A DNA stretch of 64,000 bases from SAR86 cluster bacterium. GTDB taxonomy: Bacteria > Pseudomonadota > Gammaproteobacteria > Magnimaribacterales > Magnimaribacteraceae. The notes under the pieces were generated by a model that was not told where the DNA came from, did not search any database, and saw only the letters and a list, made by a program, of their open reading frames with translations. The position numbers and the translations under genes are program-made. Each line of letters starts with the position of its first letter. The first letter of the stretch is position 1. Positions 23,353 through 26,368 of the stretch are shown one piece after another. The stretch spans positions 62,001 through 126,000 of the forward strand of contig JAQWNM010000013.1 of NCBI GenBank assembly GCA_029268615.1, in the 5' to 3' direction.

Positions 23353-24180
23353 ATGGTAAAAATTATTAAAGAACCTTCTCCATTAGGAGCAACTATAAAA
23401 GATATAGATCTTTCAAAAGAAATTCCACCTGAAGACCAAACAGTTATTAAAGAAGCTCTAGCAAGATACCAAGTCTTATTCTTTAGAGACCAAGATATCA
23501 CCCCTAAACAACACAAAGATTTTGCCAATATCTTTGGTGCCCTTCAATCTCACCCTGTATACCCTACCATTGAAGGGTTTCCAGAAATCACTATTTTAGA
23601 AAATGATAAGCTCAGACCTTCTAAGATTGAAGAGTGGCATACAGATATGACATTTAAATCAATCCCTCCATTAGGGAGTATTCTTATAGGAAAAATTATC
23701 CCAAAATTAGGTGGAGATACTTTATTTGCTAGTCTCTCAGCAGCATATAATGATTTACCAGATACGCTAAAAGAAAGGCTAGATAAATTAACTGCGACAC
23801 ATAGCTTTGCCTACGGTTTTAAAGAGAGCTTGGAAGAAGCTAAAGGTAAGAAAAAACTTGAAAAAGCAGTAAAAAATAATCCTCCTGTGATACATCCAGT
23901 GATAAGAACACATCCCGAAACTGGTAATAAATTGATATTTGTAAACTCTTTATTTACTGAAAAAATTAATGGTGTAACAACTGAAGAATCCAATGAACTC
24001 TTAGAATTTCTCTGTAATCATATTAAAAAAGAAGAGTACGTTTGCAGATTTAAATGGAAGAATAATTCAATAGCATTCTGGGATAATAGATCCGTTATTC
24101 ACAAACCAGAGAATGACTACTGGCCGCAATTAAGACGCATGGAAAGAATTACCATTGATGACATTTCTTCTCCTAAATAG
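23353..24180 (+). CDS. TauD/TfdA-family Fe(II)/2-oxoglutarate dioxygenase
   Basis: This 275-residue enzyme has the iron-binding triad His96-x-Asp98 (EEWHTDMTF) and His250 (RSVIHKPENDYW), plus the 2-oxoglutarate-binding Arg261 or Arg262 (QLRRMERITI). Length and layout match TauD/TfdA proteins, which hydroxylate sulfonates, aryloxyacetates or similar acids. No sulfonate transporter is nearby, so the substrate is open. It converges on the thioredoxin gene with a gap of 8 nt. Confidence 0.92.
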   Translation: MVKIIKEPSPLGATIKDIDLSKEIPPEDQTVIKEALARYQVLFFRDQDITPKQHKDFANIFGALQSHPVYPTIEGFPEITILENDKLRPSKIEEWHTDMTFKSIPPLGSILIGKIIPKLGGDTLFASLSAAYNDLPDTLKERLDKLTATHSFAYGFKESLEEAKGKKKLEKAVKNNPPVIHPVIRTHPETGNKLIFVNSLFTEKINGVTTEESNELLEFLCNHIKKEEYVCRFKWKNNSIAFWDNRSVIHKPENDYWPQLRRMERITIDDISSPK

Positions 24181-24188
24181 GGGAAATG

Positions 24189-24692
24189 TTATTTCCTTAG
24201 AACATAAGATTGAAAATATTCAAAAATTTCCTGTGATTTATTCTGTCTTGCAGATCTCCATTTATCTGTTGAGTCTAAATTGAGGATATTATCTTTCTCT
24301 CCAAAAATTACTACTCTTGGTATACCTTCTTGTCTTGGAATGCCTAATAACTCTAATAGATTCATATTTATGTCATACTTCCCAACATCTATATGAATTA
24401 GTGAAAAATTATCCTCAATAAAAGATTGAACAGTTGGGAGGCTCAATGTTCCTTGAAGGATTCTACAATCAGGGCACCAATTAGCCCCGAAAATAATGAT
24501 AGACTGATTGCCAATTCTACTTTGATTAATAAAATCAAGGACTTGTGTTTCCTTAATTTCCCGTCGCTCGTATGGCAAAGGTAAAGGGTTTACTAAAACT
24601 TCATGATCTGGAATATTTAATATATCTGAAGCCATAATATATTGACCTCCTAGATAAAGTAACAAGCTAATTGAGATATAAAATTTATTCAT
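24189..24692 (-). CDS. Secreted thioredoxin-like protein
   Basis: This 167-residue protein has a signal peptide (MNKFYISISLLLYLGGQYIMA) and a thioredoxin fold with active site WCPDC (in FGANWCPDCRIL, about residues 66-77). The CPDC active site and export suggest a periplasmic thiol reductase. It is last in the AlkB operon, 6 nt after a small membrane protein gene, so it may protect or mature a component of that system. That link is inference from position. Confidence 0.85.
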   Translation of the reverse strand: MNKFYISISLLLYLGGQYIMASDILNIPDHEVLVNPLPLPYERREIKETQVLDFINQSRIGNQSIIIFGANWCPDCRILQGTLSLPTVQSFIEDNFSLIHIDVGKYDINMNLLELLGIPRQEGIPRVVIFGEKDNILNLDSTDKWRSARQNKSQEIFEYFQSYVLRK

Positions 24693-24698
24693 CTATCT

Positions 24699-24905
24699 TT
24701 ATCCAATAAACCACTTATATGGTTCTTTTCCTGCTATCTTAAAATATATCAACATATTTACCATATGTGTGAGCAACAATATGGCTCCTATCAATACTGC
24801 TATAAATACATTCTGATAATACAAATGGGCTCCTAATAAATACAATATATAAATAATACTCAAAGTCCAAATAGACATTAATAATATCGATTTTAAATTT
24901 TTCAT
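24699..24905 (-). CDS. Small two-helix membrane protein in AlkB operon
   Basis: A 68-residue protein starts at ATG 24905, chosen because GAGG lies 6-7 nt before it; a longer start at 24920 would overlap the ferredoxin stop. It has two hydrophobic helices (about residues 4-25 and 32-52) and a basic C terminus ending YKWFIG. I do not recognise the family. Its place between the ferredoxin and thioredoxin genes makes it a possible membrane partner of the hydroxylase. Confidence 0.7.
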   Translation of the reverse strand: MKNLKSILLMSIWTLSIIYILYLLGAHLYYQNVFIAVLIGAILLLTHMVNMLIYFKIAGKEPYKWFIG

Positions 24906-24916
24906 TTTTTCCTCTT

Positions 24917-25225
24917 TCATTTTAATAAAGCTACTTTAATTTGGATATCTGACTTTAGTGTTGTCTGGCAAGCTAAGCTAATACCACCCTCTATTTCTTC
25001 TAAACCTAAGACATAACTGAAATCAAGTTCCTTTTTTATACTTCCTTTAATAAGTTGATATTTACAAGTACCACAGCTTCCAACTTTACATTTATAGGGC
25101 CAATTAATGCCCCTTGACAAAGCTGTAGCTAATAAATTCTCTCCATAACTTACTTGAAATTTGATATCTGATTCTAAAAGCTCAACACTAAAATTTCTGT
25201 CTTTCTTTTTAAATATACTAAACAC
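24917..25225 (-). CDS. 2Fe-2S ferredoxin, plant/xylene-monooxygenase type
   Basis: This 102-residue protein has the cluster-binding cysteines Cys46, Cys51, Cys54 (CKVGSCGTC) and Cys86 (LACQT), the spacing of plant-type and oxygenase-associated ferredoxins. It lies 6 nt after the AlkB-like gene and probably passes electrons to it. Classical AlkB uses rubredoxin, whereas XylM uses a reductase with this kind of ferredoxin domain. No FAD/NADH reductase domain is fused to it or seen nearby. Confidence 0.9.
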   Translation of the reverse strand: MFSIFKKKDRNFSVELLESDIKFQVSYGENLLATALSRGINWPYKCKVGSCGTCKYQLIKGSIKKELDFSYVLGLEEIEGGISLACQTTLKSDIQIKVALLK

Positions 25226-25231
25226 AATAAC

Positions 25232-26368
25232 TTAAGGTTTTACTGGTACTTTAGGAAACAAACTTGCTATATGTCTCTCGTCTTCTGTAGCATAATTTTT
25301 ATCCCAATCATCTAGATGCTTTTGAACAAATTTTCTAAATAAACTAGGTATTAATGTAAGAATAAATAGAGAAAAATACCCTATTCCATAATTAGGCCCC
25401 TTGACATCATCAAGTTCCCAAAAATAAGTTTCTCCTCTGACATGGTGATCGCATTGCCTTCCAATTTCTATAAAAAACCAACTTGTAAATACGTTATCAT
25501 TATCCCAGGAATGCCTGTGCTCAACAGGCCCTTCTTTTCTAATCAATCCATAATGGCCCATAAAATTTAGAGCTTCAAGTAAGAAATTGGAGATAGCCCA
25601 AACTATCAAAAGCGATAAAACTCCAACTGCGCCTCCAGACCACACAAAAAGAAATATGCTAGGGAGACTATAAAGATAGCCTATGATCCACCTATTATCA
25701 AAACTCATAAGTGATTTATTTTGTCTTTTTAATCTTTTATGTTCTAAATCATAAGAGAACTTAGATTGGCCCATATGAGAAAGCCAAGCATGTTCATAAA
25801 CATTTCTACCTCGAGGCGCTGTTGCAGGATCATCCTCATGACCAAGATCAAGATGGTGATTATAAACATGAGCATATGTAAAATGGGATGCACCACTCAA
25901 GGCCATAATTAGTCTTGAAGTAAGAAAACCTTCCTTCTTATTATGAGAAAGTTCATGACCATAAATAATTCCTAGGCCTGCCCATAATCCTGTTGATAAA
26001 ATAGCTCCAACTAAATTAAATCCAGATATCCCAGCCTGATAAACAATTCCTAGATAAATTGCACTATCTACTGGAACTGCAGAAGTGTAGTGAAATAACC
26101 TCCAAGCTAGGACTATCTGTAACAAAATAAAAATAGGCAACATAAGATACATGACAAGATATTGAAATATTTTTATTCCATATGAATTTCCATCTCTATC
26201 AAAATCAGCTTTAAGATGGATATCTTTAGTTAGAGTATCAATGATAGTATTAATTCCAAAAAGTAAGACCCCTAACCAAGAAAATACACTCCCTAAGAAA
26301 ATACTATAAATAGTTACTAAAGACATTACAGGCACCAGTAAATAACGTACATTTACAAAGAATTTCAT
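25232..26368 (-). CDS. alkB: AlkB/XylM-like membrane diiron hydroxylase
   Basis: This 378-residue integral membrane protein carries the eight-histidine diiron motifs of alkane hydroxylases: HELSH at 138-142, HVYNHH at 167-172 with His177, NFMGHYGL, EHRHSW, and RQCDHHVRGE. Several hydrophobic segments precede and follow. The family hydroxylates alkanes, fatty acids or aromatic methyl groups with O2. The motif spacing supports AlkB rather than a fatty acid desaturase. It is first in an operon with a ferredoxin, a small membrane protein and a thioredoxin. The substrate is not known. Confidence 0.88.
   Translation of the reverse strand: MKFFVNVRYLLVPVMSLVTIYSIFLGSVFSWLGVLLFGINTIIDTLTKDIHLKADFDRDGNSYGIKIFQYLVMYLMLPIFILLQIVLAWRLFHYTSAVPVDSAIYLGIVYQAGISGFNLVGAILSTGLWAGLGIIYGHELSHNKKEGFLTSRLIMALSGASHFTYAHVYNHHLDLGHEDDPATAPRGRNVYEHAWLSHMGQSKFSYDLEHKRLKRQNKSLMSFDNRWIIGYLYSLPSIFLFVWSGGAVGVLSLLIVWAISNFLLEALNFMGHYGLIRKEGPVEHRHSWDNDNVFTSWFFIEIGRQCDHHVRGETYFWELDDVKGPNYGIGYFSLFILTLIPSLFRKFVQKHLDDWDKNYATEDERHIASLFPKVPVKP

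Follow-up and report, generated by a model that had tools for sequence, protein, structure and literature searches.

XylMA is a classical ferredoxin-fed system, and front-end fatty acid desaturases use cytochrome b5 as electron donor. In the alkane monooxygenase AlkB, the first iron is held by H137, H141, H167, H172, and H314 and the second iron by H171, H272, H311, H315, and E271, and six arginines, including R284 and R287, point towards rubredoxin (PMC10113152). The nine histidines have been called invariant and indispensable in AlkB (PMC10110569). A glutamine for the first histidine of the third box (QxxHH) is known in front-end desaturases (PMC4404247, PMC6130074). Besides, a class with ferredoxin, ferredoxin reductase, and AlkB in one chain (ferr_ferrR_AlkB) is already published (PMC8918992), and a ferredoxin-fed AlkB relative as such is not new.

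Here we analysed a locus on contig 13 of a SAR86 genome (G000; 1.77 Mb, 18 contigs). We call the window the whole stretch of 64,000 nucleotides that contains it. By homology, the window system would work like XylMA or the fused AlkB, yet it belongs to neither class.

The fused class (PMC8918992), like the window, combines an AlkB-type hydroxylase with the same kind of plant-type [2Fe-2S] ferredoxin. It also has a short R277-H286 loop (window numbering), as in the window family. The Polaromonas pPNAP01 protein, filed as ferr_ferrR_AlkB by its domains, shows 34% identity over 68% of the window hydroxylase, but this fused protein of 752 aa has its own reductase and retains all nine histidines and the glutamate. 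The window has separate genes instead of three domains in one chain, and the reductase domain is absent.

XylMA (pWW0) also couples a membrane hydroxylase to the ferredoxin domain of XylA and has the short loop. However, its reductase is fused to the ferredoxin, it belongs to an aromatic catabolic operon, and the annotated pWW0 region contains no two-helix gene. XylM shares 27.5% identity with the window hydroxylase and retains the third-box histidine of the eight-His motif, which is a glutamine in the window. A XylA-type ferredoxin-reductase partner is absent from the window, whereas relatives at 50-58% identity have the fused form.

AlkB with rubredoxin (structures 8f6t and 8sbb) shares with the window hydroxylase the fold, eight of the nine ligand histidines, and an intact first-iron site, whereas in the window H311 is replaced by Gln and E271 by Gly, the rubredoxin-facing loop is missing, and a ferredoxin takes the place of rubredoxin. 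Front-end desaturases are working membrane enzymes with Gln for the first third-box His, as in the window, but they form a different branch of the superfamily. In titles and the starts of abstracts, which is as far as the literature search went for most papers, the hydroxylase-ferredoxin-two-helix cassette was not found described.

Gene content of the locus

The first-pass annotation read the locus as genes for an AlkB-like hydroxylase, a 2Fe-2S ferredoxin, a small membrane protein, and an exported thioredoxin, and the four open reading frames were confirmed in this order, all on the minus strand (Table 1). Co-transcription of all four in the source genome is plausible because of their spacing: gaps of 6 bases lie between hydroxylase and ferredoxin and between two-helix protein and thioredoxin, and the ferredoxin and two-helix genes overlap by 4 bases. 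The overlap is zero if the two-helix protein starts at 24905, the position matching the start of its homologues.

The hydroxylase belongs to the FA_desaturase superfamily (PF00487, 83.8 bits, cut-off 29.7). The ferredoxin matched Fer2 (51.7 bits, cut-off 21), and the thioredoxin, with a hydrophobic N-terminus and the motif ANWCPDC, matched Thioredoxin_7 (30.5 bits, cut-off 27). No Pfam or NCBIfam family scored above cut-off for the two-helix protein.

When searched for insertion marks, the window contained no tRNA and only weak repeats, and GC around the genes is about that of the surroundings. A promoter scan scored below shuffled sequence. A TauD-like dioxygenase gene lies convergent with the thioredoxin gene. 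In the source genome, several flavoprotein monooxygenase-like proteins (L108, L110, L111, and L112, read from their sequences) suggest broad oxidative catabolism.

Table 1. Coordinates of the window genes and of features observed in related loci
Feature	Sequence	Position	Strand	Basis
AlkB-fold membrane hydroxylase, 378 aa	window	25232..26368	-	Pfam PF00487; 8f6t/8sbb by sequence and predicted fold; ligand map
Plant-type [2Fe-2S] ferredoxin, 102 aa, GTG start	window	24917..25225	-	Fer2; alignment; tree
Two-helix membrane protein, 73 aa (68 aa if start 24905)	window	24699..24920	-	26-row alignment; two hydrophobic stretches; co-occurrence
Exported thioredoxin-like protein, CPDC, 167 aa	window	24189..24692	-	Thioredoxin_7; hydrophobic N-terminus
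TauD-like dioxygenase	window	23353-24180	+	303 bits, just below the NCBIfam taurine dioxygenase cut-off of 313
Truncated globin	L049	7250-7612		PF01152
Truncated globin	L049	10054-10647		PF01152
Hydroxylase/GlnE-like fusion frame	L055	9430-11880		
Hydroxylase/GlnE-like fusion frame	L057	10157-12655		PF03710, E 2.9e-9 (Pfam scan of L057)
Hydroxylase/GlnE-like fusion frame	L052	10979-13120		
MetY	L030	4103-5431	-	TIGR01326 above cut-off
MetY	L033	4532-5839	+	TIGR01326 above cut-off
MerR regulator	L083	4714-5688	-	
MerR regulator	L066	4811-5782	-	

Distribution of the three genes

When 84,980 species genomes were scanned for the hydroxylase, 110 relatives were confirmed, and 80 loci were kept; these represent fewer than 80 genomes, as several genomes gave two loci. 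We refer to the 33 loci with at least 69% identity to the window hydroxylase (L011-L043) as close loci. Within the order, the hydroxylase was found in 10 of 203 genomes, the source genome included, and the other copies showed 73-80% identity.

The ferredoxin and two-helix genes adjoin the hydroxylase in 32 of the 33 close loci. The exception is L028/L008, where the hydroxylase has neither gene and the contig continues past it; this genome (77% complete) showed no more than an Isc-like ferredoxin and a Fer2 frame of 412 aa. L036 retains the three genes in the order two-helix, hydroxylase, ferredoxin. The hosts of the close loci are labelled as SAR86, OCS116/Hyphomicrobiales, MED-G09, HTCC2207, Porticoccaceae, Woeseiaceae, Halieaceae, Kangiella, and Acidimicrobiales, although MAG labels may err. 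They span two phyla and have few neighbours in common beyond the three genes, which look like a laterally spread functional cassette.

Among more distant relatives, L044 and L045 (59-60% identity) carry the hydroxylase, a truncated globin, the ferredoxin, and the two-helix protein. Several loci at 50-58% identity combine the hydroxylase with a globin or a small 4Fe-4S protein, a GST, a ferredoxin-FAD-NAD reductase of 356-363 aa, and the two-helix protein, and four of this group (L058, L060, L141, and L142) add a FadL/TodX outer-membrane protein gene. Many loci at 50-56% have neither a ferredoxin nor a two-helix gene beside the hydroxylase.

In L049, two truncated globins lie in hydroxylase operons, one with an apparent export signal; such globins possibly serve O2 supply or NO protection. 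Three loci from Porisulfidus-type and related MAGs present an odd fusion, in which a single frame holds both an AlkB-like hydroxylase domain and a nucleotidyltransferase region resembling GlnE.

The two-helix protein

The two-helix protein has two hydrophobic stretches, and the alignment of its family (26 rows) ends in a conserved P-[YFW]-x-W. Judged from charge, both ends are probably cytoplasmic. The profile of these rows, run on 369 genomes of the class, found the protein in 12 genomes, at 17 places. A hydroxylase search on a comparable class sample, equal in size, gave matches in 44 genomes; 13 of them were counted as carrying a family hydroxylase (at least 47% identity to the window protein), and the other 31 match at 36% or less.

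Each of the 12 two-helix genomes also belongs to the 13 with a family hydroxylase, and none of the 31 genomes with only other AlkB-like proteins has the protein. The thirteenth (G447) has a locus with hydroxylase, globin, and ferredoxin-reductase, without a two-helix gene. Fisher's test, which here ignores kinship, gave p = 1.2e-21 over the 369 genomes and 6e-10 within the 44. The two-helix gene adjoins a ferredoxin or ferredoxin-reductase gene at 12 places (own included) and a hydroxylase gene at 5, which covers all 17. Moreover, it is retained in distant relatives where a XylA-like ferredoxin-reductase stands in for the bare ferredoxin. This distribution marks the two-helix protein as the predicted dedicated partner of this hydroxylase family; the first-pass annotation overlooked how tightly the two go together.

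Fold, phylogeny, and iron site of the hydroxylase

The nearest solved relatives by sequence are AlkB structures (8sbb, E 6e-27; 8f6t, E 1.6e-22), in agreement with the initial reading as AlkB-like. The predicted model (pLDDT 79, pTM 0.84; pLDDT below 50 around the third His box) displays the AlkB fold when compared with 8f6t (Z 28.2, rmsd 3.4, 334 aligned) and 8sbb (Z 25.1, rmsd 3.7, 337 aligned), and is barely similar to stearoyl-CoA desaturase (4zyo, Z 3.0).

In a 61-row tree, the family (100/99), AlkB (99/99), XylM (100/100), and a ferredoxin-reductase-linked pair (100/100) form separate groups, and the family, XylM, and the pair sit on a common branch (99/97). The AlkB rows lie on one side of a branch without the family, both in this tree (99/99) and in a thinned 33-row tree (100/100); the XylM rows are set apart in both trees as well (100/100). 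AU tests on the thinned tree rejected neither the family with AlkB (p-AU 0.095) nor the family with the ferredoxin-reductase-linked pair (p 0.134). We dropped a firm sister group for the family because these tests leave the branching order of the four groups unsettled. Thus, by these trees the window family is placed outside the rubredoxin-AlkB clade, and sisterhood with XylM is not established.

The first-iron ligands are all retained in the 81 family sequences. At the H311 position, all 81 have Gln, whereas His is found in XylM (5/5), AlkB (9/9), and the ferredoxin-reductase-linked proteins (2/2). An added sample gave the same picture: of its 12 family loci, 11 extend over the site and all of these have Gln, and each of the 17 loci from outside the family has His. 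The E271 position is Gly throughout the window's clade (34/34) and Glu in the rest of the family (47/47); in XylM the glutamate is replaced too, by Gln (5/5). The window hydroxylase therefore departs from the AlkB set of nine His and one Glu at two places, Gln305 for the second-iron His and Gly271 for the second-iron Glu.

By homology, the second-iron site is altered, a change that the first-pass annotation had missed. Loss of function does not follow from the glutamine because of its precedent in front-end desaturases. Since the first-iron ligands are intact and the second-iron site is altered, we infer that the hydroxylase probably remains a di-iron enzyme, its second iron being weaker or tuned in another way.

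Ferredoxin and electron supply

Residues C46, C51, C54, and C86 of the ferredoxin are invariant in 24 rows, as in plant-type [2Fe-2S] ferredoxins. Starting with its first residues (MFxxFKK), it can be aligned to the ferredoxin domain of the fused reductases in clade-2 operons. It matches the N-terminal ferredoxin domains of L049, L054, L059, and L064, and its domain also aligns with that of XylA. In operons of the 50-58% relatives, XylA-like reductases adjoin the same two-helix protein. The cassette ferredoxin is the ferredoxin domain only, and the four genes of the locus contain no reductase domain. Alignment and tree thus support a XylA-like ferredoxin without a fused reductase, as first suggested. 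In L153, a bare ferredoxin lies beside a two-helix gene, and the same genome has the fused form elsewhere. A single loss of the reductase domain was dropped as an explanation because losses cannot be counted on a ferredoxin tree as weak as this one (10 of 32 branches starred).

Three further Fer2 proteins are encoded in the source genome: NqrF and two whose genes lie next to Isc-type genes. A rubredoxin and a ferredoxin reductase had been proposed as search targets, and only the first was found: two rubredoxin genes, neither near the cassette nor near an AlkB-like gene. A dedicated reductase in the source genome was rejected, as the sole NAD_binding_1 match is NqrF by sequence and neighbours. 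Candidate reductases are a C7 protein (Pyr_redox_2 and Reductase_C) and a C13 protein (a second Pyr_redox_2).

Proposed function and alternatives

We consider it likely that the three genes form a horizontally mobile cassette, encoding a membrane non-haem iron hydroxylase that depends on the ferredoxin, has the two-helix protein as its dedicated subunit, and carries an altered second-iron site. This reading draws on gene content, conservation, co-occurrence, similarity of the model fold, and ligand changes by homology. The hydroxylase would bind a hydrophobic substrate in the membrane and activate O2 at a cytoplasmic iron site. In the electron path that we infer, the cassette's own [2Fe-2S] ferredoxin would deliver the electrons. 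As the reductase domain that is fused to this ferredoxin in relatives is absent here, a host NAD(P)H reductase would re-reduce the ferredoxin in trans. As dedicated membrane subunit, the two-helix protein would probably steady the hydroxylase or dock the ferredoxin. The substrate would most likely be a small or medium hydrocarbon or other hydrophobic compound; a hydrophobic hydrocarbon is probable for this putative hydroxylase.

Several observations stand against this reading: the rubredoxin genes and the lack of a dedicated ferredoxin reductase in the source genome, the AlkB grouping that the AU test did not reject, the hydroxylase of L028/L008 without its two partners, G447 without the two-helix protein, and the low pLDDT around the third His box. 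Genes for alcohol or aldehyde dehydrogenases are not linked to the cassette either, and a gene of sulphur metabolism beside it in two lineages (MetY, below) hints at a different substrate.

A non-catabolic enzyme that modifies the cell's own lipids (a hydroxylase or desaturase of fatty acyl chains, carotenoids, or other membrane lipids) seems unlikely to us, although part of the evidence suits it. Among the neighbours of the close loci, no catabolic gene is linked to the cassette. We dropped the prediction of a substrate from neighbours, as the close clade shares few of them. In 17 loci (cluster c3, among them L083 and L066), distant single-gene hydroxylase relatives have a divergent MerR regulator beside them, whose B12-binding part is weak. 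The MerR/B12 type of regulator is known from light or carotenoid control. The QxxHH third box of front-end desaturases (PMC4404247, PMC6130074) also fits a lipid enzyme. On the other side, the FadL/TodX transporters in relatives' loci favour a hydrocarbon substrate, and the fold is that of AlkB and barely that of stearoyl-CoA desaturase. MetY in two lineages and the MerR/B12-type regulators point away from a hydrocarbon.

A bolder and rather doubtful reading is a separate class of membrane oxygenases whose second iron would no longer be bound in the AlkB manner; two of the five second-iron ligands are gone from the marine bacteria of the window's clade. The O2 chemistry would depend on one tightly held iron and on a second metal that is labile or of another kind. 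The two-helix protein would be an obligate subunit, completing or guarding the site, and the class would have spread laterally among streamlined marine bacteria of two phyla.

An ordinary alkane monooxygenase fed by host rubredoxin, with the ferredoxin serving something else, is improbable. The source genome does have two rubredoxin genes and a Reductase_C flavoprotein, the fold is that of AlkB, and the AU test leaves room for an AlkB grouping. However, neither rubredoxin gene is near an AlkB-like gene, the ferredoxin accompanies the hydroxylase in 32 of 33 loci, and AlkB forms a separate supported clade. Moreover, by alignment, the R277-H286 stretch, where R284 and R287 lie, has 16 residues in 9 of 9 AlkB rows (5 with an annotated rubredoxin alongside) and 10-11 residues in all 34 close rows, 47 other family rows, 5 XylM rows, and 2 ferredoxin-reductase-linked rows. 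The family, XylM, and the ferredoxin-reductase-fused AlkB are thus without the loop bearing two of the six rubredoxin-facing arginines, and all 81 family sequences carry Phe or Trp at the place of R148. The loop is long in 7 and short in 10 of 17 additional proteins from outside the family; in a crude motif scan, rubredoxin motifs appeared only near long forms (3/7) and ferredoxin motifs only near short forms (4/10, with L181 doubtful). The missing loop and the exclusion of the family from the AlkB clade in both trees support the initial suggestion of a hydroxylase distinct from rubredoxin-dependent AlkB.

The MetY gene (O-acetylhomoserine sulfhydrylase) lies next upstream of the cassette in Acidimicrobiales, with a full gene in five loci, and divergent beside it in two Kangiella loci (L030 and L033; also L026, L032, L034, L039, and L041). 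The hydroxylase tree does not place these two lineages as sisters. The adjacency is a possible hint at a sulphur substrate, or chance, since MetY is common. We judge it very unlikely that the enzyme oxidises a small methylated compound of sulphur, of the dimethyl sulphide type, and releases methanethiol for MetY: only 7 of 33 loci have the gene, and the third Kangiella locus (L043) has different neighbours.

Finally, the view of the first-pass annotation that all four genes form one unit holds for hydroxylase, ferredoxin, and two-helix protein, and scarcely any credence is left for a functional unit that includes the thioredoxin, despite the common strand and six-base gap, because no counterpart occurs among the open reading frames of the 80 loci (best E 3.1) and relatives in 7 of 34 other genomes of the source organism's family (six at 55-60% identity, one at 25%) lie amid different neighbours in genomes that all lack the hydroxylase (0/7). 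By this pattern the thioredoxin is a presumed passenger outside the hydroxylase system.

Relevance for the hydroxylase family

One survey reported alkB/M, in places xylM, in a SAR86 genome (PMC8166890), which may be another gene than the one described here. Marine surveys probably include such genes under alkB or xylM. If the ferredoxin use, the unstudied subunit, and the altered iron site are true, the resulting counts lump together enzymes that differ in their partners and perhaps also in their substrates. The length of the R277-H286 loop may be a simple sequence mark of rubredoxin versus ferredoxin dependence. Moreover, the Gln and Gly replacements would provide a natural experiment on the role of each iron in AlkB chemistry.
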